Origin: Bryobacteraceae bacterium
GTDB lineage: Bacteria; Acidobacteriota; Terriglobia; Bryobacterales; Bryobacteraceae
Direction of reading: 5' to 3'
DNA length: 64,000 nt
Assembly (NCBI GenBank): GCA_025056455.1
Contig: JANWVY010000010.1
Coordinates: forward strand, 62,001-126,000
Position 1 is the first letter of the stretch; each line of letters begins with the position of its first letter. Made by a program: the position numbers and the translations under genes. The notes below the pieces were generated by a model. That model was not told the origin of the DNA. It worked only from the letters and a program-made list of their open reading frames with translations, and searched no databases. This document shows positions 23,001 to 63,344 of this stretch, piece by piece.

Positions 23001-23191
23001 GCGTTAGAAATCGCCACGCGGACGAATTTCCGTTCGAGATTGATCGCGGAGACTTTTCCATCCTTCAACACCGCTCCCGAAGGATCAGAGAGAACGCCGC
23101 TAATGTTGGCTGCCGTTTGACTCCACAGCAGGTGTGGGAAAGTGAAAACCCAGGCCCGAAAGACGGCGCGGCTGTACGCTAACCGGATCAC
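20081..23191 (-). CDS. TonB-dependent receptor with carboxypeptidase-regulatory domain
   Basis: This 1036-residue outer-membrane receptor is of the type expanded in Acidobacteria. After a signal-like N-terminus (residues 1-25, GTG start) comes a carboxypeptidase-regulatory (Ig-like) domain at about 27-110 (SGVLSDPSGAVLKDGKV, GEYVLSGLPAGNYELRV). A plug domain follows at about 115-235 (IRELPLNGRNWTDLALLQPG, SAEFGRNSGGQFNVLTKSG), then the beta-barrel, ending in FALRFAF with the terminal Phe typical of outer-membrane proteins. The substrate is unknown; in this lineage they are usually linked to glycan or peptide uptake. The length is normal, unlike the truncated relative near 33-35 kb. Confidence 0.93.
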   Translation of the reverse strand: MIRLAYSRAVFRAWVFTFPHLLWSQTAANISGVLSDPSGAVLKDGKVSAINLERKFVRVAISNATGEYVLSGLPAGNYELRVERNGFRPVVRKNVELTVAQQLRLDFTLELGDMSQEVTVTGQASSVNTSTHELSYLVGENAIRELPLNGRNWTDLALLQPGVVAYPHRDGGSVVAHGLGMSINGQDPRSNVYLLDGTPMNDFTNGPAGSAASTALGTETIREFRVEVNSYSAEFGRNSGGQFNVLTKSGTNDFHGGVVYFHRNDNLDSRDYFDDVRPEFKRNQLGATLGGPIRRDKSFFFVGYETLRERKGRTILTIVPDLAARSGQIAPIDPVIRPYLEAFPLPTPGRRSAGFGLGEHIFRYNQLLDQNFGQARYDHNLSERSQLFVRYTADDAAQELPTDYPQFPRTFLSRNQFLTAEHRVALSNSLLNTLRASFSRTRIGQDVQANLNPPLPAFVPGRTMMGGIDIGGIPGRFGPQTSVNVKLTQNIFGIEDGVSYNRGAHLFKFGAMAERYRDNMVNPTFALGIFTFASITDFLQNRPQRYLGLDPRGALDRYWRFTLSAFYAQDTWRVSRRLTLNLGVRYEFSTTPIDIYGRDSALINLMDPAPTVGQLYQNPTYRNISPRVGIAWDPSGDGKTAVRAGYGIYWNTNNQQNLIVTVTNPPATPRLIIANPTFPVPQFERGVGNTIRPVEWNIKNPYVQVWNINVQRQLPFDTLVTFGYAGSRGIHLWRSTDANTAIPIRREDGTLFFPLNAPRQNPAFSTIELKKSDGNSWYNAFLWEVRKRWNSGFSFQSSYTFSRNIDTTQASTFFSDATNGTTTAMPEYPGFQYNKGLADYHAKHNWVMNYSWAIPFAKSLRGVQGKLLDGWELAGIAQARSGNPLTVFVARNRSRSQWSPSLGPGLGFDRPSMAPGFTHQSAILGSPDRYFDPAAFVLPPAGTLGNLGRGALIGPNLRNVDFALIKNTRWAKLGESGNIQFRCEVFNLFNRANFGVPSLLAFTGAADNEAPLGSLGRIRTTVTSSRQIQFALRFAF

Positions 23192-32747: not shown

Positions 32748-35123
32748 TCAAAAGAAAAATCGTAGAGCAAAGCGGAGCTGCCGCTCGTCGGCCCGCGCGC
32801 TCGTAATTTCCGTGTAGCCACCCAAGCTCCGGATGCTGCCGTCGCTGTTCAGCACCAAATTCGATACGTTTGTACCCGGATTGTTGAAGTGCGGGGTGTT
32901 GGTAGCGTTGAATGCCTCAGCGCGAAACTGCAAGTGCAGGCGCTCGGTCACTGCGAATGTCCGAAAGAGCCCTAGATCCAGGTTCACTAGTCCTGGCCCT
33001 CGCAAGTTCGACAGTCCTGCGTTGCCAAAACGAGCCGCTGTAACCGGTGCAAAGGCAGTGGGGTCAAAGTAGGACTGTCCCGGCCCTGTCCCTCCCAAGA
33101 TGGCCACCTTCGGCTTCACTTGGTCGGCCACCTGGCTGTTGCCCGGCGCATTTAGAGGAGTTGGCGATGAAGTGACCGTGAAGGGAGTACCGCTGTAGGC
33201 GCTGAAAATACCGTTAATCTGCCAGCCTCCTGCTAGCAACGCAGGAAGTCCTGCTTTAGCCCTCGCTTTTCCTCTACCAAACGGCAGTTCCCAAATACCA
33301 AAGAGGCGGAGATTTTGAGGGCGGTCAAAGCTGAGGAGTGAACGATTCCTCGCCAGCACCTCAACCCAGTTGAAGAACAGTCCGCTGTCGTTGTTCTCCC
33401 CAAACCCCAGAGCTTTGCTCCAAGTATAGGCGGCGCCGAGGCTGAAACCTTGACGAAAACGCCTGTCCATCTGAACTTGCAAAGAGTCATAAACAGACGT
33501 ATAAGCTGGCTCGTGCAACGTGGTTGCGACGTTCCGGCGGAACGCAGCAAAGAAGGGCCGCCCGGCCGCTCCACCGCCTGGCGGCGCCGCGTTCAAGACC
33601 CGGCGGTTGGTCAGCCGGATGGTTCGCGAGGCCACATAGCCTGCTTGAGCGACAAAGCCCCACCGCAGCTCCCGCTGCAGCGTAAAGTTGAACGACTGCA
33701 CATAGCCCCGATCAAAACGTTGTGGAATCGTCAGGGTAGTCACCGAGGGAGGAAGCTCTAGCACGCCCCGACCAATGTCCGGCAGCTCAGGTAGCGGGAT
33801 GCCGTCCGCTGTACGTCCAGCTGGGGCAAAGGTGTTCGGTGCAACAATCGACTGCTCGATCACTGTGGGGTAGGAACTCCGGAGGGGAATCGCCAACGGG
33901 AAGGGGTCAATGCTGATCCCGTACCCAGCCCGAATTACGAGCTTTTCCATCGCCCGCCAAGCCAAGCCCACCCGCGGCGCAAATAGCTTTTTGCTCAGCT
34001 CTACGCCTGTGTCAAGTGGTGTAGCCCCCAGCCCGCCGATTAGCATCTGGTTGGTCGTCCAGTCGTAGCGCTCTACCCCGCGCTTTACCCGCGTCACCAT
34101 CGGATAGTACTCCCACCGTAATCCTAGGTTGAAGGTGAGTTTGCGCGTTAGCTGCCAGCGGTCACGCACGTAAAAACCCATATTCGTTAACCGGGTACGC
34201 ATGAAATCTGTCGTTGGAATACTCTTGCCAAAGCTGCTTGGCAACCCCAATAGAAATGCGGCTAACGAATTAAACTGGTTGGGCGCTAGCCCGCCATTCA
34301 GCGCCGTTATGCCGCCGGTGAAGTTGAACCCTCCGCGCGGACCAAAACTACCCGCTGGCTGGTAATGGTTCATGTGCTGCCGAGCGATTTCTCCTCCCCA
34401 GCGGAAGTTGTGCGCGCCACGGGTCCAACTGGCGTTGGCAGAATACTGAAACTGACGGTCAGTGCGAAAACGAGGGCTCGAAGCAATATATCCGCCCATA
34501 CCTTCATAATTGGTGACCTGAAAGCCCGGAAAACCACTTTCTCGCACCGTCGGACCATTGGTGCCGGGAATCTTCAGCACGTCGAGTCCGATATTTCGCC
34601 CGAAGAATTCATCGTGGCCATTCTGGTTTTGCTCGGTGTAGCCAAAATGGCCATCGACCAGCACCGAAGGTGTAAAGACATGTGTACCGCCCAACGTAAG
34701 ACTATGAACCGTACCTCTGTCGCTACCTGGAAACGTGGACGCAACGCCGCGCCCGCCAGCTTCGCCCAGCGCCGGCGGGTCGTACGTCCTGTAGCGAAAC
34801 AGCGCATACCGACCAAATAGGGAAGACTTGGCGCCCGAGTACCAGTTGAGTTTTCCATCATAGTTATTGCGATCGATCAACATCGGGGCCGAGGCAAAGA
34901 AGTTTTGTGCGAAACGGTCAAATGTCGGTTCGGGAACCAAAGCTAGCACCTGGCGCGAGACGCGGTCAATTCGCGAGGCCGGGATGAGCAGATTCGGAAA
35001 TGGCTGCCGCCCGGCGCCATTGGAGGCCCCAGTAGCTGGATCGTTAGAAACTTCACCAACCGACTCCGTGAAAACATGACAGCCTGATTCTATTTCCCGG
35101 GCGCGCAAGAGGCAACCAGCCAA
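32748..35123 (-). pseudogene. TonB-dependent receptor, 5'-truncated
   Basis: This frame of 791 codons is clearly the barrel part of a TonB receptor. It reads FPNLLIPASRIDRVSRQVL near its start and FNLGLRWEYYPMVTRVKRG in the middle, and ends RFALRFFF. Signal peptide, carboxypeptidase-regulatory domain and plug are all missing, so the product could not insert normally or gate transport. Receptor-like sequence begins only at about 35060. The first 20 codons (TTG start) have no relation to receptors and run up to 20 bp from the next gene. This looks like a deletion that removed the 5' third or more. The full-length relative at 20081-23191 shows what is lost. Confidence 0.8.
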
Positions 35124-46960: not shown

Positions 46961-49939
46961 CTAGTATGCGCCGAAGAACACCTTGGTGGTTGCCTTCGAG
47001 AATCGTCCCCGGGAATCCGTGACTGTCAACTCAAAGACATATTCACCAAAGGCCAGAGGAGCGAAGCGTACTGTCGGAGTGGCCGTGTCGGCCCCAAGGA
47101 TCAACTCGGGCTGACGGCCAACTGCTCGCCAGGAGTAGCCAATCACAAGACCCTCTGGATGGAAGGATCGTGTGCCATCAAGCTGCACTTCGCGGTTGGT
47201 CGTCACCTGGTCCGGTCCCGCATTCGCTACAGGCCCGCCTTCTCCGACGGGTCCAGCGGGCGTTACTTTCACATCCACCCGGGCCGTCACCTGTCCGCGC
47301 CGGCCAAAGGCTCGTAACGTGTAGGTGGTGTCCGCCTGCGGGTTGACAACTCGGGCTCCGCTGGCGCTGACCGGCCCAACGCCGTCGAGGAAGACCTCAG
47401 TTGCGCCTTCCGTTGTCCAGGACAGCGTAACCGGAGCGCCCGGACGCGGCGAAGTTGTCGGATTGGCGACGAAGGAGACGATCCGTGTCGCCGGAAACAC
47501 GGTCACGGTAGTTTCCGCGCTCACCTCACCCGACGCGTTCCTGGCGACGAGAGTGTAAGTCGTGGTTGTCGCCGGAGTGACATTTGCGGTGCCACTGAAG
47601 GCGACTTGGCCTAGCCCGGTAATCGTCACCGTTTCGGCATTTTCCACTTGCCAGACCAGCGTAGCCTGCTCGCCCGCCACAATTTCGACGGGCGCAGCGG
47701 AGAAGCGAACCACCCGCGCCATCGGTGCCGGATTCACCTGAACAGACACCTGCGCCGTAGCCTGGCCGAACCGGTTACGCGCGGTGAGCACATACGTGGT
47801 GGTCGTCGTGGGCGAAACAGATTGTGTACCGTTTTGCGCCACTGCGCCGATCCCGCTAATTTCCACCGACTCTGCGCCCTCGGTCTGCCAGCTGAGCACC
47901 GAAGATTGACCAGCGAGAATCGTCATCGGCGAAGCTTGGAAGAACAGGATCCGAACCTCAGGACGCTGCACCGCGACGGTGACCGTTTCGCTGACTTCTC
48001 CGTTGCGGTTGCGCGCCGTGAGACGGTAGGTGGTTGTCTGCGTTGGGGCCACCGTCGATGAGCCGCTTGCCGGATTCACACGGCCAATGCCGTCAATCAC
48101 CACCTCTTCGGCATTCTCCACTGCCCAGCTCAGCGTCGATGTCTCACCGCTGCGAATCTGTTGCGGGCTTGCAACAAACCGCAAAATCCGCACGGGCGGG
48201 GTTCGACTGACCGTGACGTTGACTCGCGCCACACTCGAGGCCCCTTTATCATCCGTGACCGTAAGGCGGAATCCATAGCTTTGTCCTTCGACCGCCGTAA
48301 ACGTGGCTCTGGCCGTGGTTGCCCCCGCAATGGAGACGGCAGGACCCGCAATCTGCGTCCACTGGAATGTGATTGGATCGCCTTCGGGATCAAAGGATCC
48401 AGAACCATCCAGGGTGACCGGGCCCGGCTGTACTCCAAGCTGGTCCGGTCCAGCATCTGCCACCGGAGCTTCGTTTCCGGTGCGGACACGCCGCTGGAGA
48501 ATCTCATAGCGCACCCGCGGCACATCCGCCGGCACGGGGTGGGAAAGCGACTGAAACTCCTTCGGTCGCAGAAGATTTCCAAACAGCAGTCCGGCCACCA
48601 CCCGCCCGTTGTTACTGCGGGCGAGCAACGTCTCATTAAATCCCCCTTCCACCGTAAAGGCCAGGTTGTTGTTGAGTGGAAAAACAAAGCGGAGCGTGCC
48701 GCCCGGCCGGTCGGCATGACCGTAGCTTTTGAGGTAACCCAGATTACCCTCTGCATACACGTTGCGATAGAGCCCGACTGTGGCTTGCGCCCCCACTTGA
48801 TCAATCGCCTTCAACACGTGCTGAATTTGCAGGGTCCGCGTAATCGGAGTCACCGCAAGCACCTGGTTGTCCAGAAACGCCTTCGTCCCAAACATCCCCA
48901 CCTTGCCGCGTCCGAAGATATAGTCCAGCGTGAGCGCTGCCTGCCCCAAGGTGCCGCCAGAGCGCAGCTCATTCACTTGCACGTTCTTAAAACTACTGAA
49001 CAAGCCCGGCTGGAAGTTCTTATAGCGATACACCAAACCGAGATCGAACTGGCCTTCTTTGCGGTCTCGGAAATAGAGATATTCGCCTTGGCTTTGAAAC
49101 GCGAAATTCTCTTTGAACGGGGCAAAGTAGCGCGCCCGGCCAGAGAAGGTCAATTTGCCAGAATCATCCACGCCCGCATTCACACCCAGAAGGCTAAAGC
49201 GAGGAGCTCGCGATTTATCAATCGCATCCGCGCTGGCCCGTTCGGTGATCGAACGGACTTCGCTCGCCGAAAGCGGTTTGGGTAGATTCAGAATATTCTT
49301 GTCTGTTTGCTGCTGGGCAGCCTTGAGAGCGTCTAACTCGCGGCGCAGCTCGGCATTCTCTTTCTTCATGTCCCGCAGCATGGCCAGGATCTCATCCAAT
49401 CGGTCCAGCTTACTGAGCACCTTGGCTGAGTCATCGCTTCGCTTTTGCATCTCCGAAAGCCGCTTTTGCAGCTCTTCGATCGCGTCGGAAATGCTTCCAT
49501 CTCCAATGCTCCGCCCTTGCTCATCCTTCACCGTCACATTGACCCGACGGTTCATGAACTGTGCCTCTTTCGAACGCCCAGACACCTTAGGGTCCTTCCG
49601 GCCCCGCGTGGTGGTCTCAATCTGACTTGCCGGCACACCGTATTTGGTGAGAAAATTCCGCACGGTCGTCGCCCGCTGCATGCCGAGCTTCTCGTTGTAG
49701 CGGTCTGTACCTCCGTCATCGCCGTGCCCTTCTAATTTCACGCGGTAGCCTGGATGCCGTTTCAGCAATTCTGCTAGCCGCAAAAGGCTCGGATAGCCAT
49801 CCGTTAAAATGGCGGATCCCCGTTCGAAGTTAATCTCTTCCCAGTCTTCCTTAGTAGCAGTGTTTTCGAGCCCCTGAGCGAAACCCGCTAAGGCCAAGCT
49901 AGTGGCCAGCAAAACTTGCCTCCACAAGCAGTTGATCAT
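46961..49939 (-). CDS. OmpA-like domain, coiled coil, barrel and Ig/PKD-repeat protein
   Basis: This is a 992-residue exported protein with an unusual order. After a signal peptide (1-22) comes an OmpA peptidoglycan-binding domain at about 30-140 (INFERGSAILTDGYPSL, KLEGHGDDGGTDRYNEKLG, RNFLTKYGV, NRRVNVTV), where most OmpA proteins have it last. A charged coiled coil spans about 155-215. A beta-rich region of about 230-480 looks like an outer-membrane barrel (GRARYFAPF, GEYLYFRD, DLGLVYRYKNFQPG). It is followed by one PKD-like domain, four roughly 80-residue Ig-like repeats (S-x-x-P-x-x-I, LSW-x-x-ENAE, I-x-G-I/L-G, TTTTTY-x-L-x-ARN) and a last PKD-like domain. The ATG at 49939 follows GAGGAGGA. 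Function: probably envelope anchoring or surface display. Confidence 0.8.
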   Translation of the reverse strand: MINCLWRQVLLATSLALAGFAQGLENTATKEDWEEINFERGSAILTDGYPSLLRLAELLKRHPGYRVKLEGHGDDGGTDRYNEKLGMQRATTVRNFLTKYGVPASQIETTTRGRKDPKVSGRSKEAQFMNRRVNVTVKDEQGRSIGDGSISDAIEELQKRLSEMQKRSDDSAKVLSKLDRLDEILAMLRDMKKENAELRRELDALKAAQQQTDKNILNLPKPLSASEVRSITERASADAIDKSRAPRFSLLGVNAGVDDSGKLTFSGRARYFAPFKENFAFQSQGEYLYFRDRKEGQFDLGLVYRYKNFQPGLFSSFKNVQVNELRSGGTLGQAALTLDYIFGRGKVGMFGTKAFLDNQVLAVTPITRTLQIQHVLKAIDQVGAQATVGLYRNVYAEGNLGYLKSYGHADRPGGTLRFVFPLNNNLAFTVEGGFNETLLARSNNGRVVAGLLFGNLLRPKEFQSLSHPVPADVPRVRYEILQRRVRTGNEAPVADAGPDQLGVQPGPVTLDGSGSFDPEGDPITFQWTQIAGPAVSIAGATTARATFTAVEGQSYGFRLTVTDDKGASSVARVNVTVSRTPPVRILRFVASPQQIRSGETSTLSWAVENAEEVVIDGIGRVNPASGSSTVAPTQTTTYRLTARNRNGEVSETVTVAVQRPEVRILFFQASPMTILAGQSSVLSWQTEGAESVEISGIGAVAQNGTQSVSPTTTTTYVLTARNRFGQATAQVSVQVNPAPMARVVRFSAAPVEIVAGEQATLVWQVENAETVTITGLGQVAFSGTANVTPATTTTYTLVARNASGEVSAETTVTVFPATRIVSFVANPTTSPRPGAPVTLSWTTEGATEVFLDGVGPVSASGARVVNPQADTTYTLRAFGRRGQVTARVDVKVTPAGPVGEGGPVANAGPDQVTTNREVQLDGTRSFHPEGLVIGYSWRAVGRQPELILGADTATPTVRFAPLAFGEYVFELTVTDSRGRFSKATTKVFFGAY

Positions 49940-50234
49940 GGATTTGGATTCCTCCTCAATAAATTTCCCGTCTGGGTGAACGGTTGGGAAAAAACACCTC
50001 CACTCGTGTTCTTGTCTCAAAAATCGACTTTTCCTTTGCGCGCTTTACCCGAGTCTCAGCGGCTTTCTTTGGGGTGTAATTTCTCCTCGCCTGAGTCAGT
50101 AGAATTTGCTCGGACGGGCTTGGCCGCTCGACATTTACGCGGCCTCCCTCTCCATCCTAGCAATCTTGAGGCCAATCACTCGGAACGAGCGCCCGTGCCA
50201 TCCGGACCCCCTCCTTCTTCGTGCGGCAATTTTC

Positions 50235-51503: not shown

Positions 51504-52376
51504 CTACTTTCGCGGCGGACGGCGCGGCGAACGCTTCAGCTCGGGCGGAAAATCGGCAACCGGAGATCCTTTTGGGCTCCGGAGATTCTGCGGGTTTCCC
51601 CGGTCGGGCCACAACGGGATTTGCTGGCCCCCGCGTTGCTCCAAAATTTCGAACAATCGCGCGCGCATCCGCGAAACGATTTTTTGGTGCGCTTCGCTAT
51701 CGATCAGATTGTTGGTTTCGAGCGGATCCTGCTGAAGATCGTAGAGTTCGTCAGAATCCCAGATGCCGTGGTAGCCGATGAACTGATAGCGCTCTCCGCA
51801 CAGCGCAGGGATCGTAGGCGTTTGGGGAAAATTTCTTCGCATGGCGTGGAGTATCGCGATCACACGGGAATCGATGTTGCGAAATACTACCTTGACTACA
51901 CTGAGACGCTTGGCGGCGTGGACGAAAGTGTCGGGCGGTTGTTGAACGCCTGGAAGGCACGGGGCGAGCTCGATTCAACCTTAGTCATTTCCATGTCAGA
52001 CAACGGGTCGGCATTTGGCGAACACGGCCTCATGGATAAAAGGACTGCGTATGAACAATCAATCCGCGTGCCGTCGCTCGCGTTGTCCGGAGCTTTTCGG
52101 CGGTGGAAAAACGGTGCAAGACTTGGCTTTTTTAAATCTCGACCTCGTGGCGCGGCTCGGGGCTACACAGCGACGTTGTGACAAAAGGGTTCTGAAAGTG
52201 AATGCCCTCCTGAGCCATGCGGTCCAAATGCGAGGTCTCTAAACAATCCTGACCCTTAAAAATCCCATGGTGTCATAGGCGATGATCATCCGACAGGATG
52301 AAAATCACGTTCCTGGGCTTGGCTCCTGGCGGCTCTTCACGGATCCTCAGAACACAACCAGACAGCTCTTCGCAGT
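51504..52376 (-). pseudogene. Sulfatase pseudogene with inverted middle segment
   Basis: Three pieces of one sulfatase can be read. On the minus strand 52376 to about 52162 gives the N-terminal part (KPRNVIFILSDDHR, then in shifted frames KGQDCLETSHLDRM and FVTTSLCS). This stops exactly within the Cys-x-Pro-x-Arg formylglycine motif. The middle part is read on the plus strand. The minus strand from about 51845 to 51504 gives the C-terminal part ([36 protein letters not shown]). Frameshifts lie near 52281 and 52256. Sequence either side of the inverted block is missing, so the gene cannot be restored by a simple flip. It cannot make an active enzyme. It follows the TamB-Omp85 gene on the same strand. 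Confidence 0.85.
51840..52160 (+). other. Inverted block inside the sulfatase pseudogene
   Basis: Read on the plus strand, this block encodes the middle of the sulfatase: [47 protein letters not shown] and [10 protein letters not shown]. In another frame it continues [14 protein letters not shown] and [11 protein letters not shown]. All of these are normally on the same strand as the flanks, which are on the minus strand. Breakpoints are near 51840 and 52160. Confidence 0.8.
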
Positions 52377-55300
52377 CAAAAAGCCTGGCCGATGCTAAAG
52401 AACAGCCGGCCAAGACCTTCTCCTGGACGACGATCCAACTTAAATCCATAATCAAAGCGCAATAGAAAGTAAGGCGTGCGAATTCTTAGGCCAACGCCAG
52501 CAGCCTTTCGCAGGTTGGATAGCCGGAATTCAGAAATCGACGGGTACACGTTGCCAAGATCCGCAAAACCAACTCCTTCGAATAGCTTGTAGATCGGAAA
52601 CCGCAGCTCTTGATTGGTGACGAACACCGCATCACCGCCACGCGGCCCGCCAGCAAAATCAACCGGGCCAATCGAATTCTGCGCAAATCCGCGGATTGTT
52701 GTACCTCCTCCCGCAAAAAAGCGTTCGCTCGGAATGAGCGTCTGACCGCCAAGCCCTCTCGCCAGCCCCAGGCGCACAGCGCCAGCATAGACCCAGCGAG
52801 ACCTCAACGGTCCGCCCAGCAATGGGGCCCCAACAGGCTTGGTTAACGGGACAAATTGGAAATACTGCCCGTAATACTTCGTGTAGCGCAGCTGAGAACC
52901 AAGAAAAGCCGGCGCATACTCAAATGCATGCGAAACAAGCGAGCCGCGCGTCGCATCTAAATAGTCATCCCTCGTATCGCGTGTAAAGGTGAACGCCAGA
53001 GGCGCAATGCGCGTCACAATCGGATCCAAAGCCCCCAAGATGGGATCCGGAACCCGGTCTACAGTTTCTGCTTGTTCGAGACGGTATCCCAAACTGAGGA
53101 GGTAGTTTCCACGCAAGCGAGACTCTTGCTGGAGCGAAAAGCCAATCCGGTCCGTGCGAAAAGCAGGCTGCAACTCGCGACGAAAAAAGGTGGCAGCAAC
53201 GGTCTTCAGAGGAAGTTGCTTTAGCAGTGGTTGCGAGAAGTACAAGCGGCCCTCGTGCAGATCCGCGTCGTAGCGGCCGCGGAAGCCCAGAACCCGGGCC
53301 TGGCCAAGGGAGTTGCGATTGGAAAAATCCGCAATCCCGCCCGGGCCCCGCTCCGTATCGAAGTAGGCCCCGTAGCGCAAATCCCAAGCGGGCACCTCTC
53401 GCACGCGCACCACCAGACGCACCGGCTTAAATCCCGCCCCGCCCTCCATTTCCTGGCGTTCGATTTCCACAAGCGCGAAGGCCCCCGTGGCATAAAGATC
53501 TCTCCGCGCGCGACCGATCAAGTCCACGACCACCGCATCGCCGGGCTGAAACGGCAGCTGGCTTCGAATTAGATTCTCACTCACGCGCGAATTTCCCCTC
53601 ACCTCGATCTCCGCAATCCGGCTCGGAAGGCCCTCTTGGATTTCGAATGCCAGGCGCAACTCGTCAGGTTTTTCGCCCGGCACGAGCTCTAAACGCACGT
53701 CGCTATCAAGGTAGCCTTTCGAGCCGTAAAGGTTCCGTAAATTCTCAACAGCTGCTTCCTGCAAACGGGCGGTGAGGACCGTCCCGGTGGTGAACGGCAA
53801 CGCCGCCCGCAGCGTTTTCTCTTCTAGCGCCGAGTAGCCGCGAAACACGATGTCCCCGATCCTCGCCAGCGGGCCGGGATCCACCTTCACGCTCATCTTC
53901 ACCAGCTGGGCATCTGCCTCCAGGCGCGCCTCAGGCTCGGAAACACGCACCTGGCGGTAGCCCCGCTCGCGGTAAAAGCTCTCCACGAGGCCGCGCAGCT
54001 TCTCCGGTTCGAGGAACGCCAGAAATCCGAGCTTCTGGCTTTCAAACAACGGGCGGAATTGGCTGGTTTCCGTTTCGCTTGCACCTTCGAGGGAAACACG
54101 CAATTCTCGGTAGGGACTCCCTGGCGTCACCTCAAACCGCACTTGCTTTTCCGCATCGCTTGAAGCCAGGATCGACGTCGTGACCACAGCTTGAACAAAC
54201 CCCTCGGCTGCTAACCGGCGGCGAATCAGACGAGCGGCCTCATCGAGCCGCTGGGTGTCAAAAACGCCACGCCGCCAGATGGATTGCAACTCCTCTCGAA
54301 GCTGCGCGGGTGGCTGCCAGCCCTCAAAAACGAAGCGCACTACCGGGCCAGGATGGACGAGAACATCAAGGTCAACTTGCTTTTCTCCAACCTGCCGGCT
54401 GACACGCACTTGGGCCTCTAGCAGGCCGCGGGCCGCATAGCTCTTTTCAAGCCGTTCGACGCCGTTGCGCAAGATGAAAAAATCGTACCGGCGGCCCGTT
54501 TTCACGCGCAGTTTTTTCCATACCTCGCGTTCTGTAAAAACGGGCTCTCCGGTCAAGCGTAGCTGCCCCACAACACGGCGCATCCTCTCGGCGTTGGTCT
54601 GAGCCGCAGGCGGCCCCCCGAGACGGATATCGTGATTGAATTCGAGTCGGAAACTGGCGTCGCTTTGTCGCACCCCCCGTGTAACAAAATTGCGAAAGGT
54701 TTCCCACTGCGCCACGTAAATCTGATCCCGGCTGTCGGTGAGATTCATGGAGTAGACGAAACTCAAACCTCGCGCCAGATCCTGGCCAATGGTCAGCCGC
54801 GCCGTCGGATTCGATTCAGGCGCAATCAATCCAGGCTCAACTCGGAATTGCGAAATGCCCGTCGCTCGTTGCACCCGCGAAGAAAGAGTCCCTCCCACGC
54901 TGCCCGCAAGCAAGGAGAGCGCTTGCTCTTTGGCCACCGTAGCCCCTGCGCCACGCGCCTCTTCTAAGGTCCGCCCGGTCACCAGTAACGAGGCAATGTC
55001 TTCTTCAGCAAGCGGCGGATCCGAGCTGAATGTCGTTGTCAGACGCTCCCGCAAGCCGCCCTGGACGAGCAGTTGAATCTCGTGGCGGTTCACCTTGGTG
55101 CGGGCCGAAAGGTCGAGCAAGGGCTCGAGTCGGCGCTCGTCAGCAAAGGTGATTACACCTCGCTCGATCAAATATCTCCGCTCGGCGAGAAGAAGCTTTC
55201 CGCCTTCCTCTACTTCGAGCCGGCCGGTCAAGGCCGGATTCTGCAACGAACCCACCAGCCGCAGGTTCGCCTGGAGGCTGGCCTGAGCCAGATTGTTATC

Positions 55301-58300
55301 GACAATCACCGGATTGCGGGTCACCAGCCGGAGATCGAACTTCAGGCGCGACCGGAACGACTCTTCCGCCGCCAATTCTGCGGGTTCGCTTGCCCCGCGC
55401 GACCGGAGATATTTCACCACGCCCGTCTCCAAGGTCAAGGGATCGGTATAGGAACCTTCCGCCACTTCGACTGTACCCGCCAGCATGAGGTCCCGACGCT
55501 GGCCCTCCAACAGGATTTGAGCGTCGGACACTGTTTTGAGCCCTTCCGGATAGTTCAGATAAACTCCCGAGGCCTGAAGTTTGACCACCCCCTCCGCCAG
55601 TTCGCTCCCCGCCAAGCGAATTTGTCCGCTCCCTTCGAGCTGTCCCCCATTCAAATCAGCCCGTAAGCTACGCAGTTCCACGCGGTCTCCCGTAAACTCG
55701 GCGCGCAGAGCGACATGTTCAGCCTCCAGTTGGGGCGCAAAAAGACTCAAGCGTCCCTCTTTCACCTCGAAGAAACCGGCAATCTTCGGCTCCGAACTCG
55801 TACCGTATCCCACCAGCCGCCAGCGCGAGGGACCTTGCACTCGCGCCTGGGTCAACCACGGCGACAGCACAGCTAGATCCATGTCGCCATCCGCTCGAAT
55901 TGTGATCGCGCCCCGCTGCTTCAGCTCTCCTTCACCCCGCAGCACGATTCGCGTCTGAGGTCCGCTCCAAACGGCATGCTCAATGCGCACCTTGCCCTGA
56001 GCTAGCGAGAGGACCGATTCGCCCTGCTGCTCAAACCCGTAACGGTCTACCTGGAAACGGAGTCTGGTGGCCTTGATCTGACCCGTGATGGCCTCAAGAC
56101 GCAGCGCCGGCGCCTGAAAATACAGCTCGAAGTCGCCAGCGCCCGCCAGAGATTCGGCTACGCCAGGCAGGGCGCGCAGGTCCAACCCTTGCAACCGGGC
56201 CCTTAGCCAGGCCTCCTTTGACAAACCTCGAGACACCGGCAGCGAGGAAGGCAGAAGCGCCAAGGGGACTTCCCCCTCTGCCCTCAACCTCGCTCCCTTC
56301 CAGCCAGCTACCAATTCCTCAAGACGAACTCCGCCCTCGGTAACACTTGCCAAAAACCGCTCAATCTCAACAGGCCCGAGCTGTCTGGCATCCACGCCTC
56401 CGCCCTCCCAGCGCGCCTCGAGCTGGGGCATCATTCGTTCCAAGGATCCGGAGATAGTCCCTGAGACCTTCATCCGGCCACGAGCCTGGTAGGTTGTGTC
56501 GATTGCGGCCAGCGTTGGCAACTTTTCAACGTTCAGGTCCACGTCCACTTGAATGGAGCCCGGAGCCGAGCTCGACTTCCAAGGAAGCTGCCCCTGAACT
56601 CGAACCGTGGAGTCGCCCCAGCGTAAGGCCGCAGGCGCGAGCTGGATCCGGCCATCAGACCATGAGGCGCTCAGAATCCCCTCATTGCGAAGACTCTCGC
56701 CGCGAACGTTCGCTTCCAAACGAGAAATCTCCAAACTCGCGCGACCTTGGTCCCAACGTGCGAGCTCCAACCAGCCCCGCACGACCGCGTCCAACTCACC
56801 CACCACCGGAAATTCGTCAGCGAGCGGAAGCCGGTCAAGCTTCATCGGGCGCAAGCGAACTTCAAACTCCGTCGCAAACGGCGACTCCAAGCTCGACACG
56901 CTCGTTGCTTGCGCACCCAAAGCCGGCACCTCTGCCCGCAACTCCAGTTTCCGGGACTGGATGGCGGCCGCTAGTTTTGCCTCGCCGAGTTCCCGCCCGC
57001 TGATGCGCAACTCGTCGACTTCGACCGCGGCGTCAAGCCGCGGATCCTCCACCGCCCCACCACCCGAAAGCCTGAGGTTCACCAGTGCTGCCACCCGGGT
57101 CTGATCTGGCAGGGTCAACGAGTGGAGCGCCAAGTCCTTGCCCTCTGCCTGAAGCTGGAAGATTCGCTGCGCCACGTTGTAAGAAGCTGTCGCCTCAAGT
57201 CCGCCTGCGGGAGCCACGCCGGGGGATTGTTGCAGCGAGAATTTCTTCACACTCACCACGCCCCGGTCCCAATGGGCATGGAGCTCAAGCGATCCGAAGG
57301 ACTGACCGTAGGCCACTAGTTCGCTAGCTGTGGCATGCAGCGAGACTTGCGGCGCCTTCCACGGCCCAAACAGCGCAAATTGCGCAGACCAGACCCCTGA
57401 TAGCGGAATTTGCTGCCCGGCCCCTTCGAGCAAGCCCGCTAAGGAGCTTGGAAGCAGTTCTCCCTGAAGCTGAACCACCGGCTCGCCAGCGAGGCGTTCC
57501 ATCTGGCCGCCGAAGCTTAACTTTTGCCCCGCCCAGCTCACCTCCGCTCGGGGCATCTCGATTTTCTCTTTCGCGAGCTTGAGCTGGCCACGCGCCTGCG
57601 CCCCCGAATACTGGTTCCAACCGATCTCACTGGCCTCCCAATCCACCGAAAGCAGAGGATGCACGAGCGATCCTGACAAAAGGCCGCGCGCGGCAATCCT
57701 GCCTTCAATCTTTGGCGCCGGCTGGGGCAGCAAGCCTTTCTCTGCGGCGGCTTGCAGCAAACGGTCTAGCTTCTCTGCGTTCAATTCAATTTCGCCCCGG
57801 CATTCTGTCCCGCTGGCGATCGAAATCCGGCCGCTCGCTTCAAGCGATGCAAACCGGAGGGTCGGGATCTGAATCGAAATGGCGTCCGGCGTTAGGGATG
57901 CTTGAATTGCCGCGGAAAGCGGAAGCGCGCGCTTGCGTGGCGGATTTTCCACCGGCTTGAGAACCGCTTGGAGTTCCGCTCGAGCTTGGCGGTAGTTGAA
58001 GCCCGGCCAGCGGGCCGTGACGACGGCCGAGGCCGTGCTGGCCAGCCGAAGCGGCCAGCCCGCTCTCTGGCTGATGGCTTCGAGCTTGGCCTGCGAAAAA
58101 CGGGCTACTGCACGGCTGTTGCCTTCTCCTAGCGCTAAATCCAAGACAACGTCTGCCTGCCCTAGTGGGCTCCGGATCTGAAGCGGCTCTACCCGCAGAC
58201 GGCGTGTTTTTCCGTCCAAGAAAAACTCGGAGTTTAAGCTTGCTGGCCATCCAAAGGCCGCGAACTCCGCGGACGAAATCCGGCCGCGCACCACGAGTTC

Positions 58301-59140
58301 ATGAACTGGCCCCGATACTTGGAAGTTCGCATCCAAGCCCCCTTTCCATCCCTGGAAACCAGCGAATAAACCTATGGCGGCAAGCTCCAGTCGGGTCTCC
58401 GCTGTCAGTTTGAGCGTCGTCGGGCTGCGCAAACTGATCTCGCCCCTTGCCTGAACGTTCGACTGGCCGCTTGAAAACGCCGCATGCTGGATCGCTAAGG
58501 AATCTGCCCGCTGCCAGATCCGGCCTTCCGCACGCCAGGGTAAGATCTGGCCGCCCGCAACGGCTTCACCCTGCCCGGCGATCCATTCAATCGCATGCGT
58601 CCCCGCCGCGAGATCCCCGCGAATGGCTAGGTGTATCCTCTGCGCCGCAACACGGACTCTCGCGCGCAGGTCTTCATAAATCAGCGATAGATCTGTAAAC
58701 TCGCCCGTTTGAATCAGGAAGTCCCACGAAGATGTCGCGTCGCTTTCCGGCAGCCTGGGAAGGTTGTTGCGCCCGTTTGCCTCAATCCGCACCTGAAGCG
58801 CTGCCCCCTCCACCTCGAGTTGCGAAAGCTGCAACTTGCCGCGCAACAGCGCCGCAGGTTTCACACGCAGGAAAACTCGACGCGCCTTCAGAAAAGGAAC
58901 CTGGCTTTCGCCGCCCTTGGATGCCGCTTCGAGATCTGCCATCCAAACCGACCGCGCGGGCAGGTTGTAATGCAGCACAAAGCGGGACTCAATGCCTTGA
59001 CTCCGCAGCCAGGCTTGCAACTGGGCTGCTGTCCAGCGTTGCACACTAGGCGCATGGATGGCCCCCAGCCCCAAGAGAACCATCAGCGCAAAAGCGCTAG
59101 TTCGAACCAGCCACCGGCGCCGTGTCGAAAGTCCCGGCAA
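52376..59140 (-). CDS. TamB fused to a five-POTRA Omp85 (BamA/TamA-like) protein
   Basis: This is a single uninterrupted polypeptide of 2254 residues with a TTG start (GTGAGGG upstream). Residues about 10-30 form the TamB-type inner-membrane anchor. A long AsmA/TamB beta-rich body extends to about 1510, ending in a typical DUF490 C-terminal domain (IVDNNLAQASLQANLRLVG, LEVEEGGKLLLAERRYLIE, SSDPPLAEEDIASLLVTG). Then come five POTRA-like units (about 1515-1915) with the pattern of long helix plus strand and terminal PG (VGQLRLTGEPVF, VRFVFEGW, YRELRVSLEG, IGDIVFRGYS, IAEIEVRGNSRV). The Omp85 barrel follows (about 1920-2254) with GGGTTIRGFAQNSIGP, the conserved RGF motif of barrel loop 6, and a C-terminal Phe. 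In other bacteria TamB and TamA/BamA are separate proteins that work together in outer-membrane assembly and phospholipid transport. The preceding TPR gene is 18 bp upstream. Confidence 0.9.
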   Translation of the reverse strand: MPGLSTRRRWLVRTSAFALMVLLGLGAIHAPSVQRWTAAQLQAWLRSQGIESRFVLHYNLPARSVWMADLEAASKGGESQVPFLKARRVFLRVKPAALLRGKLQLSQLEVEGAALQVRIEANGRNNLPRLPESDATSSWDFLIQTGEFTDLSLIYEDLRARVRVAAQRIHLAIRGDLAAGTHAIEWIAGQGEAVAGGQILPWRAEGRIWQRADSLAIQHAAFSSGQSNVQARGEISLRSPTTLKLTAETRLELAAIGLFAGFQGWKGGLDANFQVSGPVHELVVRGRISSAEFAAFGWPASLNSEFFLDGKTRRLRVEPLQIRSPLGQADVVLDLALGEGNSRAVARFSQAKLEAISQRAGWPLRLASTASAVVTARWPGFNYRQARAELQAVLKPVENPPRKRALPLSAAIQASLTPDAISIQIPTLRFASLEASGRISIASGTECRGEIELNAEKLDRLLQAAAEKGLLPQPAPKIEGRIAARGLLSGSLVHPLLSVDWEASEIGWNQYSGAQARGQLKLAKEKIEMPRAEVSWAGQKLSFGGQMERLAGEPVVQLQGELLPSSLAGLLEGAGQQIPLSGVWSAQFALFGPWKAPQVSLHATASELVAYGQSFGSLELHAHWDRGVVSVKKFSLQQSPGVAPAGGLEATASYNVAQRIFQLQAEGKDLALHSLTLPDQTRVAALVNLRLSGGGAVEDPRLDAAVEVDELRISGRELGEAKLAAAIQSRKLELRAEVPALGAQATSVSSLESPFATEFEVRLRPMKLDRLPLADEFPVVGELDAVVRGWLELARWDQGRASLEISRLEANVRGESLRNEGILSASWSDGRIQLAPAALRWGDSTVRVQGQLPWKSSSAPGSIQVDVDLNVEKLPTLAAIDTTYQARGRMKVSGTISGSLERMMPQLEARWEGGGVDARQLGPVEIERFLASVTEGGVRLEELVAGWKGARLRAEGEVPLALLPSSLPVSRGLSKEAWLRARLQGLDLRALPGVAESLAGAGDFELYFQAPALRLEAITGQIKATRLRFQVDRYGFEQQGESVLSLAQGKVRIEHAVWSGPQTRIVLRGEGELKQRGAITIRADGDMDLAVLSPWLTQARVQGPSRWRLVGYGTSSEPKIAGFFEVKEGRLSLFAPQLEAEHVALRAEFTGDRVELRSLRADLNGGQLEGSGQIRLAGSELAEGVVKLQASGVYLNYPEGLKTVSDAQILLEGQRRDLMLAGTVEVAEGSYTDPLTLETGVVKYLRSRGASEPAELAAEESFRSRLKFDLRLVTRNPVIVDNNLAQASLQANLRLVGSLQNPALTGRLEVEEGGKLLLAERRYLIERGVITFADERRLEPLLDLSARTKVNRHEIQLLVQGGLRERLTTTFSSDPPLAEEDIASLLVTGRTLEEARGAGATVAKEQALSLLAGSVGGTLSSRVQRATGISQFRVEPGLIAPESNPTARLTIGQDLARGLSFVYSMNLTDSRDQIYVAQWETFRNFVTRGVRQSDASFRLEFNHDIRLGGPPAAQTNAERMRRVVGQLRLTGEPVFTEREVWKKLRVKTGRRYDFFILRNGVERLEKSYAARGLLEAQVRVSRQVGEKQVDLDVLVHPGPVVRFVFEGWQPPAQLREELQSIWRRGVFDTQRLDEAARLIRRRLAAEGFVQAVVTTSILASSDAEKQVRFEVTPGSPYRELRVSLEGASETETSQFRPLFESQKLGFLAFLEPEKLRGLVESFYRERGYRQVRVSEPEARLEADAQLVKMSVKVDPGPLARIGDIVFRGYSALEEKTLRAALPFTTGTVLTARLQEAAVENLRNLYGSKGYLDSDVRLELVPGEKPDELRLAFEIQEGLPSRIAEIEVRGNSRVSENLIRSQLPFQPGDAVVVDLIGRARRDLYATGAFALVEIERQEMEGGAGFKPVRLVVRVREVPAWDLRYGAYFDTERGPGGIADFSNRNSLGQARVLGFRGRYDADLHEGRLYFSQPLLKQLPLKTVAATFFRRELQPAFRTDRIGFSLQQESRLRGNYLLSLGYRLEQAETVDRVPDPILGALDPIVTRIAPLAFTFTRDTRDDYLDATRGSLVSHAFEYAPAFLGSQLRYTKYYGQYFQFVPLTKPVGAPLLGGPLRSRWVYAGAVRLGLARGLGGQTLIPSERFFAGGGTTIRGFAQNSIGPVDFAGGPRGGDAVFVTNQELRFPIYKLFEGVGFADLGNVYPSISEFRLSNLRKAAGVGLRIRTPYFLLRFDYGFKLDRRPGEGLGRLFFSIGQAF

Positions 59141-59158: not shown

Positions 59159-59776
59159 TCAGCGCACCGAGCGAAGGACGGATTGTACTTTTGCCGCTTC
59201 CGGCGCTGTCGGAGCAAGCTTCAAAAAGGTGTCAAAGTGCGCCACCATGCGGTCCGGCCGCTTCAATCCGTTGTACGCCATGCCCGCATAGTAGTGGGCG
59301 TAGGCATTGCGGGGATCGCGGGCGAGCGTGGCCTCGAATTGTCGGGCCGCGTTGGAAAAATCTCGCCGGGCTAAAAAAAGCAGCCCCCTTGTGTAAGCCA
59401 GATCCTTGTGCTCGGAATTGATCCGGGCCGCCTCCTGAATTTGACGCTCCGCCGGCGCGAACTCCTTCTGCGCGATGAGAGCTTGGGCCTGCCCTAGCTT
59501 GATGTCCGCCAAGTTGGCGTCTGGTTTCTCGGTCGCCAGATCGAACGCTCGCAAGGCCTCCGCCGGGCGTTGCAGCTTCACTAGCGTCAAGCCCAAGTAG
59601 TAGGGAGCCCGCCAGTCCTCTGGTTCCGCCTCCATCGCCGCCCGCAGGGATTTCTCCGCTTCGGCGTAATCGTGAGCTTCATATTGTTCAATGCCTTTGG
59701 AGGCAGCCGCCTCCTGCCCCCAAACACTCGCGGCCAAAAACAAAAGCGTGGTGACTTGAGCAAGATTCTTTTTCAT
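59159..59776 (-). CDS. Secreted TPR protein
   Basis: This 205-residue periplasmic protein has a signal peptide (residues 1-20, ending SVWGQ). About five tetratricopeptide repeats follow (KGIEQYEAHDYAEAEKSLRA, APYYLGLTLVKLQRPAEAL, DLAYTRGLLFLARRDFSNAA, AYAHYYAGMAYNGLKRPDRM). It is directly upstream of the TamB-Omp85 fusion in the same orientation with an 18-bp gap, so it is likely in the same operon. TPR partners are common near Bam/Tam-type assembly machines (compare BamD), so a role as its periplasmic helper is a reasonable inference. Confidence 0.82.
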   Translation of the reverse strand: MKKNLAQVTTLLFLAASVWGQEAAASKGIEQYEAHDYAEAEKSLRAAMEAEPEDWRAPYYLGLTLVKLQRPAEALRAFDLATEKPDANLADIKLGQAQALIAQKEFAPAERQIQEAARINSEHKDLAYTRGLLFLARRDFSNAARQFEATLARDPRNAYAHYYAGMAYNGLKRPDRMVAHFDTFLKLAPTAPEAAKVQSVLRSVR

Positions 59777-61294: not shown

Positions 61295-61445
61295 CCCGAA
61301 ATCCTCCCTCTTGCTTGCTTCGTGACTTAGTCTATCAAGGGATCTGGCGACTCACGGCTGTCGGCAATCCTGCTTCATGCTCTTACAGCCAACTTTTTCC
61401 AGCAAATGTGGCAATCTAAAAAAGTCTGGAGTTCAAGGAGGGCGC

Positions 61446-63344
61446 ATGTGCGGTATGCTGACGTTCAGCCTTGTACTTGCCTCAACCCCATGGGTTTCGG
61501 CGCAAGTCCTGAAATTGAATGACAAACAGGAGGCCGAAGTGGGCCGCTTGGCAGCCGCCCAGTTGGAATCGGAACAGCCCCTGTTCCTAGACGCCAAAAC
61601 CAACGACTACGTCCAGAGCCTAGCGATCCGTCTCGGCCGGCACTCTGGAAGGCCCGGTCTTCGCTATACGGCTCGCATCCTTCAAAGCGATGACGTCCAT
61701 GCGCTGGCGCTGCCTGGCGGCTATATTTACGTGACCCGCGGCTTGATCGAAATGACGGCCAGCGAGGCTGAACTCGCAGGCGTGCTGGCACACGAAATTG
61801 GACACATCGCCGCCCGCCAGCACGCAACCAAAATACGTCGCGCGCAACTAGCTTCCCTCGGCGTTAGCTTCTTGGGCCCCTTGATGGGCGGCGGTATCCG
61901 CGTCGCTGCCGCTGTGCGCGGCGGAAAAACGGGCGCCCGGGGCTTGTTCATGCGCTTCTCGAAAGCCGACGAGGCCGAGGCCGACCGCCTCGCCGCCAAA
62001 ATCCTTTATGACGCCGGCTACGACCCAACCGCCATGCTATCGTTTCAACGAAGGGTCACCAGCCTCAACGAAGACCAATCGAGTTTAGTCAGCAAATATA
62101 TTTCTAGTCACCCCAGCTTTCAGGAACGCTCCGACCACATCCAGGATCTGATCGAATCGCTTCCCAAACGCAATGACTGGCGGGAGAACCGTGAGGAGTT
62201 TGCCGCCATCCAAAAACAGATCCAGGCGGTCAAGCCGCCAGCTTCAAAATCCACCTCTGAAGCTGCACTGTCTCTCTTCGACTTAGCCGGTCCCGAAACC
62301 GACACTCCAGAAACACGTGCCCGCTATGTCGCCAGCCTCTTTGCACCAATTTTTTACCAAGCCTTAGGACACGAACCTCGTTATGATTACATCACCAACT
62401 TCGACTTCGACGGCGATTGGATCGGCGATAACAACTGGGAAAATGCCGCTAAATCGAAGTATCCTCTCCAAGCTTGGGTCTATTACTCCGTCCGAGAAAC
62501 CAGCACTCATTATTTCCTTCATTACGCCGTCTTCCATCCCAGAGATTACAAAGGCGGAGTAGGAAAGGGAACATTGTTCAGCCGCGTCCTTCGTACCGGA
62601 GTAAAACCGGCCGCCAAAGTGGACCCGACAGGTCGCGCTCAGGAAATCGCTCTGGCTCATGAAAACGATCTCGAAGGTTGTCTCCTGGTGGTCGCGAAGA
62701 ATGGTGACGATCCCCGGGATGGCCAAGTCGTCTTCCTTGAAACCCTCGCCCACAACAGCTTTCTCAAATATTTACCACCCGGCCAACACAAGGAAGGCTT
62801 CGGTAATTTTTCCCTGCAAGGCCGCCGCGTGAAACTGTACATCGAGCCTCGCGGTCATGGAATCGAGGCCTACGGACCGACCGAAGCGCAGCAAAAACAT
62901 ACACTTCTGGTTTATACGTTTCTCGGCCTAGCCGAAACTCCAAGCGAGGATCTCACAAAAGCCACTGGGTATAATCTCGCTCCAATCGCCACTACGCTGT
63001 GGCCTGAAGCTCTTCGAGGCGTCACCCCAACTTACGCTGAAACGGAAGACTACGGCCTGTTTTTGCTCGAAGAAGTAGGACCCGATGGAAAAGTTTTCGA
63101 ACGCAAAATGAACCTCGGCCGAATCGGATCGGCCTTCCGGGGCAAAGTGGGTGGCGCGAATCTTGCCCGCCCTCCCTGGGCATGGTTTGATGGCAAAGAT
63201 AAGAACCAGCCGCTTGGTGAGTGGTTTTTCGACCCCGCTCGAACTATCCGCCGGCATTTTGATCTACCCCCAGACTTCTCCGTTGCTTATCTCTATGCCT
63301 GGCCCCCCGAAACGGCCGCAGCGACAGCCACTCCCTCGCCCTAG
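61446..63344 (+). CDS. M48 family metalloprotease with large C-terminal domain
   Basis: This 632-residue exported protein begins at an ATG with AAGGAGGG upstream. Residues 1-20 look like a signal peptide. The peptidase domain (to about 270) resembles BepA-type M48 proteases: ALALPGGYIYVTRGLIEMTA, the zinc site HEIGHIAARQHA (about 117) and the third ligand Glu in DEAEADRLAAKIL. Such enzymes act in periplasmic quality control of outer-membrane proteins. From about residue 283 follows an extra domain of some 340 residues (YDYITNFDFDGDWIGDNNWE, YFLHYAVFHPRDYKGG, FLETLAHNSFLKYLPPGQH) that I cannot assign. The first part would be full length by itself. Confidence 0.85.
   Translation: MCGMLTFSLVLASTPWVSAQVLKLNDKQEAEVGRLAAAQLESEQPLFLDAKTNDYVQSLAIRLGRHSGRPGLRYTARILQSDDVHALALPGGYIYVTRGLIEMTASEAELAGVLAHEIGHIAARQHATKIRRAQLASLGVSFLGPLMGGGIRVAAAVRGGKTGARGLFMRFSKADEAEADRLAAKILYDAGYDPTAMLSFQRRVTSLNEDQSSLVSKYISSHPSFQERSDHIQDLIESLPKRNDWRENREEFAAIQKQIQAVKPPASKSTSEAALSLFDLAGPETDTPETRARYVASLFAPIFYQALGHEPRYDYITNFDFDGDWIGDNNWENAAKSKYPLQAWVYYSVRETSTHYFLHYAVFHPRDYKGGVGKGTLFSRVLRTGVKPAAKVDPTGRAQEIALAHENDLEGCLLVVAKNGDDPRDGQVVFLETLAHNSFLKYLPPGQHKEGFGNFSLQGRRVKLYIEPRGHGIEAYGPTEAQQKHTLLVYTFLGLAETPSEDLTKATGYNLAPIATTLWPEALRGVTPTYAETEDYGLFLLEEVGPDGKVFERKMNLGRIGSAFRGKVGGANLARPPWAWFDGKDKNQPLGEWFFDPARTIRRHFDLPPDFSVAYLYAWPPETAAATATPSP

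Follow-up and report, generated by a model that had tools for sequence, protein, structure and literature searches.

A single-chain TamB-Omp85 fusion in Acidobacteriota as a candidate trans-envelope translocation and assembly module

Introduction

The translocation and assembly module (TAM) of Proteobacteria consists of two proteins, TamA and TamB. TamB has an N-terminal anchor, a long AsmA-like β-sheet and a PF04357 end, and works with an Omp85 partner; in E. coli its binding to TamA depends on POTRA1 of TamA (available text of PMC4525385). A natural covalent TAM bears on how TamB hands its cargo over to the outer membrane. Here we describe a gene in which the two halves are joined. It lies in a 64,000-nucleotide (nt) stretch of DNA from a Bryobacteraceae bacterium (NCBI GenBank assembly GCA_025056455.1, contig JANWVY010000010.1, positions 62,001 to 126,000 of the forward strand). 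This whole stretch is referred to as the window, and coordinates given without a locus or contig are positions in it. We read the encoded protein, with a probability of about 0.72, as a one-chain trans-envelope translocation and assembly module. It shares with TAM the (predicted) N-terminal anchor, the long AsmA-like β-sheet, the PF04357 end and the Omp85 part. It differs in being one chain where TAM has two separate polypeptides, in carrying five POTRAs where TamA has three, and in placing the TamB part first, whereas tamA precedes tamB in E. coli.

The BamA-TamB hybrid of Borrelia burgdorferi likewise combines TamB with a five-POTRA Omp85. In the available text of PMC13382580 the terminal strands of the Borrelia TamB are modelled as docking on the barrel seam, and in that of PMC4494059 the gene order in Spirochaetes is tamB and then bamA. 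The hybrid is made of two proteins and its Omp85 is the sole BamA, whereas in our case BamA is encoded separately and the barrel of the fusion is a paralogue that belongs with the TamB partners. Acidobacteria also have a 'second BamA' in the TamB operon (Heinz et al. 2015), a copy that groups with TamA (PMC4494059, available text). Such tamB-adjacent separate Omp85s fall on the same side of our trees as the fused barrel, but they are separate genes, located 5' of tamB in the family of the window.

To our knowledge, the nearest precedent for one chain in both membranes is the long MlaD of Veillonella parvula, which has an anchor for the inner membrane and a barrel for the outer one. It has been proposed as a trans-envelope lipid bridge and differs from the fusion in its MCE domain, long helix, small ten-strand barrel and hexamer model, with neither a TamB nor an Omp85 part (as described in the available text of PMC10665443). 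In the Omp85 WD40-like proteins (Heinz and Lithgow 2014), an Omp85 is joined to a partner-like domain and has been called reminiscent of a BamA-BamB fusion (PMC4104836). In these the partner is WD40 instead of TamB, and the available text states no inner-membrane anchor. A TamB-Omp85 single chain is not mentioned in the available text of PMC4494059, PMC4104836, PMC11014939 (a TAM review), PMC12045153 (TamL) or PMC13382580, and the main text of PMC4494059 contains no mention of a fusion, of a single protein or gene, or of Solibacter. No earlier description was found in the literature searched, most subscription papers and InterPro architectures being outside its scope.

Results

Gene and domain architecture

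The fusion is encoded by a single uninterrupted frame of 2254 residues on the minus strand. It starts with a TTG at 59140 and ends with a stop codon at 52376-52378. A Shine-Dalgarno-like GGTGAGG lies 7 nt 5' of the TTG, and the stop of a TPR gene lies 18 nt 5' of it. The first-pass annotation of this DNA had proposed one chain with an anchor, a TamB body, a DUF490 domain, five POTRA units and an Omp85 barrel, and had named a frameshift or assembly join near 54600 as the finding that would speak against it. We observed no frame break there; 52376-59140 is open throughout, and the single frame recurs in 7 relatives with 35-37% identity across the full length. Pfam searches and structure models returned the domains in the proposed order. 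As far as sequence can tell, the fusion is confirmed as a genuine single-gene architecture. Its features are the following.

52376..59140, minus strand: TamB-Omp85 fusion gene, 2254 residues, TTG start (open frame, Pfam domains, relatives)
59057..59125, minus strand: predicted N-terminal membrane anchor, residues 6-28 (AlphaFold2 helix; hydrophobic stretch after RRRW)
55667..59056, minus strand: AsmA-like/TamB β-sheet body, residues 29-1158 (AsmA Pfam match at 57-130; mainly β-strands, pLDDT 86)
54629..55666, minus strand: TamB/DUF490 domain PF04357, residues 1159-1504 (138.8 bits)
54620..54850, minus strand: terminal six-strand TamB segment, residues 1431-1507, known in the literature as the 'pseudosubstrate' region (modelled with low-to-middling confidence; best-conserved part of TamB among the fusions)
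54575..54619, minus strand: linker from the last TamB strand to POTRA1, residues 1508-1522, with no signal-peptide-like stretch (model and hydrophobicity)
54347..54565, minus strand: POTRA1 (PF07244, E 5.6e-09 alone)
54119..54313, minus strand: POTRA2 (PF07244, E 3.5e-07)
53873..54100, minus strand: POTRA3 (PF07244, E 3e-05)
53630..53863, minus strand: POTRA4 (PF07244, E 5.6e-13)
53396..53620, minus strand: POTRA5 (PF07244, E 3.4e-06)
52379..53314, minus strand: Omp85 β-barrel, residues 1943-2254, terminal F (PF01103, 161.8 bits; Foldseek to BamA and TamA)

Pfam matches were examined up to E 0.1. The PF04357 match covers profile positions 3-380 of 381 (cut-off 22.4 bits), and the PF01103 match reaches the final residue (cut-off 24 bits). 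When the five POTRAs were cut apart, each matched alone (E 5.6e-13 to 3e-05), all above the Pfam cut-off. The chain has the predicted N-terminal inner-membrane anchor, the long β-sheet body and the complete C-terminal PF04357 of TamB/AsmA-like proteins, together with the five POTRAs and Omp85 barrel of a BamA. No match to an MCE domain, as in MlaD-type bridges, was found among these Pfam matches.

Two AlphaFold2 models were built from alignments that contained only sequences of the window and of related loci. The model of residues 1-1180 (36 rows; mean pLDDT 86.2, pTM 0.47) has helices at 6-28 and 31-47 and thereafter mostly β-strands. Its closest PDB match is the belt/sheet of lipid-carrying apoB100 (E 2.3e-10), and it also matches LptD at about 1e-3; TM-scores were low in both cases. 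These matches weakly fit a long, lipid-type groove. In the model of residues 1150-2254 (42 rows; mean pLDDT 78.0, pTM 0.57), the TamB sheet is followed by helices and six strands (1431-1507), and a linker of ~15 residues then leads to the five POTRAs and the barrel. Foldseek aligns this model with BamA over ~820 columns at E 6.5e-42, and for TamA of Pseudomonas the TM-score, normalised by target length, reaches 0.77. Substrate-bound states of BAM gave higher TM-scores, to which we attach no weight as a sign of docking in cis. Helices followed by six strands are also the layout given for the end of E. coli and Borrelia TamB in the available text of PMC13382580, and the TamB end of the fusion shares it. 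In an alignment of 18 fused sequences, one of which (L023) is out of frame, the last TamB segment (1448-1497) is among the most conserved parts of the family (mean 0.71); values were 0.48-0.56 over 1498-1847 and 0.58-0.71 over 1948-2247.

Distribution of the fusion

We surveyed 61 genomes of close kin: 12 of the genus (including the window's own), 25 others of the family, 20 further ones of the order and 4 from the rest of the class. The fusion was found in 10 of the 12 genus genomes. Seven of these copies are complete frames, and three (G001, G009, G011) break off at contig ends or contain an N gap. The other two genomes (G005, G010) gave only separate TamB- or Omp85-like matches, in a survey not aimed at the locus of the fusion itself. 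In the family, the fusion was full in 3 genomes and in pieces in 2; the order added one full and one damaged copy, and one of the 4 remaining genomes of the class also has it.

A scan of species genomes with the junction alignment relied on one peptide pattern, which distant fusions in other phyla could escape. It gave 51 pattern matches and 48 confirmed loci, all titled Acidobacteria or Acidobacteriota or bearing names that belong to the phylum. Complete single frames of 2117-2360 residues are present at 31 of the 48, and the other 17 have contig-end cuts, an N gap or a frame break. In a sample of 396 genomes of the phylum, at least 75, from 34 family codes, hold the junction in one frame (at least 1800 residues, no stop within the match), and at least 13 more hold it in a shorter frame. 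Frame lengths in this sample may overrun a stop outside the match, as at G312:C32 and G336:C9, and lengths were taken from extracted frames instead. These comprise 90 distinct fusions, of which 69, including the present one, are complete (1855-2779 residues, median 2245); the 69 are a lower bound, as copies with identical last 250 residues were counted once and a cut copy may replace a complete one. Five divergent fusions (L177, L178, L181, L182, L183) lie outside the phylum junction matches listed. A survey of related genomes had been proposed at the outset, and by these counts the fusion is spread across Acidobacteriota, more broadly than the first-pass annotation could know.

Gaps and frame breaks in some metagenome copies (L016/L040, L037, L075, L078, L082) are what one would expect if a frameshift or misjoin in sequencing or assembly had merged two neighbouring genes. 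This explanation is ruled out by the intact frames of the relatives and by the 69 complete fusions, which come from many assemblies, among them AP025252 (a 'nearly complete genome') and G119, whose assembly is a single contig. Moreover, a misjoin would not remove the internal signal peptide, yet it is missing. We give an artefact next to no weight.

The fusions also vary in length. A short fusion of 1855 residues (L159, G081:C51, 4204-9768) has one POTRA between TamB and barrel; the similar L160 is truncated where its contig ends. The longest, of 2779 residues (L131, G179:C18, 4097-12433), has a longer part before PF04357, and TamB is matched only once in its genome. A 'stub' variant, in which the TamB end alone precedes the POTRAs, was first accepted for L150 (in G394) and L153 (in G150) and then dropped, because the TamB part of L150 directly follows a run of N and L153 begins at a contig end.

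The junction

Signal-peptide-like stretches were judged by our own hydrophobicity threshold. Such a stretch is missing between TamB and POTRA1 in 67 of the 69 complete fusions, and it precedes the first POTRA in 25 of 26 separate Omp85 frames. A strong hydrophobic stretch is present near the N-terminus in 64 of the 69. Separate pairs have Omp85 before tamB in families f1, f3, f5 and f8, and tamB before Omp85 in the remaining families that were compared (f30, f33, f35, f48, f55, f61, f64 and f78). At two loci, L179 (G312:C32, ~8629) and L180 (G336:C9, ~9121), separate tamB and omp85 genes are in frame with a lone stop between them (TAA and TAG, respectively). This arrangement reads as one step short of the fusion.

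The two genomes with adjacent in-frame genes suggest that co-expression of both halves is a normal state, and the linker of the fusion is short, variable in sequence and modelled with low confidence. Both observations would suit a scenario in which one chain is translated and its linker is then cleaved in the periplasm to yield an ordinary TamB and Omp85, so that the fusion ensures equal amounts and nothing else. However, no signal peptidase site is expected, because the junction stretch is missing in 67 of 69 fusions; the linker alignment shows no conserved motif by eye, and the fusion has been retained across great divergence. We consider such processing improbable.

If the chain stays whole, as in the one-chain reading, the path from the last TamB strand to POTRA1 is limited to about 15 residues. 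The first-pass annotation had held that a covalent link fixes a 1:1 ratio and forces the DUF490 end next to the first POTRA. The ratio is borne out by the single frame in many relatives. As to position, residues 1508-1522 do tie the last TamB strand to POTRA1, but the working TamB end is not forced there. By analogy with models for Borrelia (PMC13382580) and Bacteroidota TamL (PMC12045153; available text of both), the barrel seam might still be within reach of the six conserved terminal strands. The order of TamB end and then POTRA1 fits the requirement of TamA POTRA1 for TamB binding in E. coli (PMC4525385, available text).

Lineage of the fused Omp85

Five POTRAs had been pointed out as the BamA number, yet the barrel half does not behave as a BamA. 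Against the BamA model TIGR03303 the fusion scores 268.1 bits (best stretch 1611-2254), below the cut-off of 297.15. In two quick trees, 6-8 acidobacterial BamAs form their own clade (98*), and the fused and TamB-adjacent Omp85s stand apart from it (99* in one tree, 100* in the other). The placement of E. coli TamA is unsure, with an end branch of 3.27 in the first tree and omission from the second. As judged from these trees, the fused barrel belongs to the TamB-partner Omp85 lineage and not to the BamA lineage.

A search for separate bamA or tamA genes had also been suggested, and the window's genome has both a separate BamA and a separate Omp85-tamB pair. The BamA (C25, 419.6 bits) is encoded beside an OmpH/Skp-family gene, and the pair at C25:61-69 kb consists of an Omp85 of 975 residues and a TamB of 1361 residues. 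The Omp85 of this pair passes the BamA cut-off (373.4 bits with TIGR03303), which means that the TIGR03303 score alone does not separate the two lineages. Judged by homology, the role of BamA in this cell does not fall to the fused Omp85, and given the separate pair, the fusion would be an extra TAM in this genome.

Elsewhere, PF04357 is matched only once in 27 of the 75 fusion genomes, the one-contig G119 among them, although the count is unsafe for one of the 27 (G394), which has assembly gaps. Twenty of the 27 are at least 90% complete, and in 11 of these 20 the frame given for the single match is the fusion itself. The fusion may be the only TAM in some genomes. In the window's genome, which keeps a separate pair, the two-protein arrangement has not been replaced.

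In the trees the fusions form two groups, with a third group of four (L177, L178, L182, L183) once the divergent ones are added; this third group sits among separate pairs. A single clade of fusions was not rejected for TamB (p 0.473) or for Omp85 (p 0.368; 48 of 74 rows, with the stubs taken as fusions), nor with the divergent fusions included (TamB, p 0.433; Omp85, p 0.164, 47 of 64 rows). In both trees, four fusions from distant Acidobacteriota, one at a Luteitalea-titled locus (L063, L126, L118, L156), fall together with L014 inside the Bryobacterales group, and their placement suggests transfer between classes or mis-binned contigs.

Neighbouring genes

The gene directly 5' of the fusion encodes a TPR protein.

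59159..59776, minus strand: TPR protein of 205 residues with a leader peptide (by eye), 18 nt upstream of the fusion (Pfam and locus comparison)

We compared this position across 54 testable loci, from which frames shorter than 1800 residues, frames with N and frames with less than 600 nt upstream or less than 200 nt downstream were excluded. Copies with the same last 300 residues were counted once, and two large TPR-containing frames (L155, L165) were left out of the neighbour set. A TPR gene (~200 residues, leader by eye) lies directly upstream on the same strand at 20 of the 54 loci and directly downstream on the opposite strand at 7. At the other 27 there is none within 200 nt, L163 having one 684 nt away. 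The window adds one further locus with the gene upstream. The TPR proteins of the downstream set are only about 24-32% identical to that of the window. The same TPR partner in two different arrangements argues for a working link with the fusion, though TPR proteins are common, and the periplasmic TPR protein would be an accessory in many lineages.

On the other side of the TPR gene, 2.2 kb from the fusion, an M48 metalloprotease is encoded at 61377-63344 (plus strand). It is a distant match to BepA (95.7 bits, cut-off 570), and BepA-like proteins are of the outer-membrane quality-control type. As a candidate conserved neighbour it was rejected, with no match beside the other fusions compared.

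These neighbours bear on a different function, that of a specialised second β-barrel assembly machinery (BAM). The protein would then be mainly a β-barrel insertase, with the TamB arm delivering a subset of outer-membrane proteins and the TPR protein as a BamD-like subunit. The five POTRAs, the closest structural match to BamA over ~820 columns, the TPR gene directly beside the fusion at 27 of the 54 testable loci and in the window, and the nearby BepA-like protease gene would all agree with this. However, the trees place the barrel among TamB-partner Omp85s, apart from BamA. BamD is lipid-anchored, and the leader of the window's TPR protein has no cysteine, so that this protein is not a BamD-like lipoprotein. 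Furthermore, the M48 gene is unmatched beside the other fusions compared, and the TPR gene is missing within 200 nt at half of the loci (27/54). We regard a second BAM as rather unlikely.

Discussion

In the one-chain TAM that we favour, the N-terminal helix would anchor the chain in the inner membrane, and ~1400 residues of TamB β-sheet would cross the periplasm as a groove. At its end, the final six TamB strands would dock onto the Omp85 part of the same molecule. The five POTRAs and the Omp85 barrel of TamB-partner lineage would seat the distal end in the outer membrane, with BamA presumably inserting the barrel. Phospholipid, and perhaps nascent β-strands, would move along the groove to the Omp85 gate as in TamAB; the transport may be lipid bridging, barrel assembly or both. 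Pairing, order and the 1:1 ratio would be built into the chain. If this topology is true, an inner-membrane-anchored chain can deliver an outer-membrane barrel that has no signal peptide of its own.

Several observations weigh against this reading. The fusion scores far below the NCBIfam equivalog cut-offs of both TamB (NF047952, 52.8 bits against 825) and TamA (NF047950, 100.8 bits against 625), and the linker and last TamB strands are modelled at a pLDDT of only about 40-76. No counted junction is present among the matches listed for 308 of the 396 genomes, and most named fusion loci are metagenome-assembled. In addition, PF04357 is matched more than once in 48 of the 75 fusion genomes, where some of the second matches are fusions as well (as in G255), and a second, different role alongside a separate TamB pair is possible.

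A wider proposal is that such proteins are a phylum-wide class of self-contained, single-chain bridges for lipid and β-strands, seated in both membranes, with the Omp85 gate closed in cis by the terminal TamB strands and a dedicated periplasmic TPR subunit, which have replaced the two-protein TAM in several lineages, maybe with multiple origins. We put this forward tentatively, at somewhat less than even odds. A covalent TAM would provide direct genetic evidence for the pairing of TamB with Omp85, fix its stoichiometry at 1:1 and offer a single-chain target for cryo-EM and reconstitution.

Other features of the window

Downstream of the fusion, 46961-50020 (minus strand) encodes a protein of 1019 residues with an N-terminal OmpA domain followed by PKD/Ig-like domains. 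It was rejected as a conserved neighbour, the OmpA matches being short (95-137 columns) and found at five loci only. The minus strand also encodes, at 20081-23191 and 32748-35123, two large outer-membrane barrels that resemble TonB receptors and are of OMP_b-brl_4 type.

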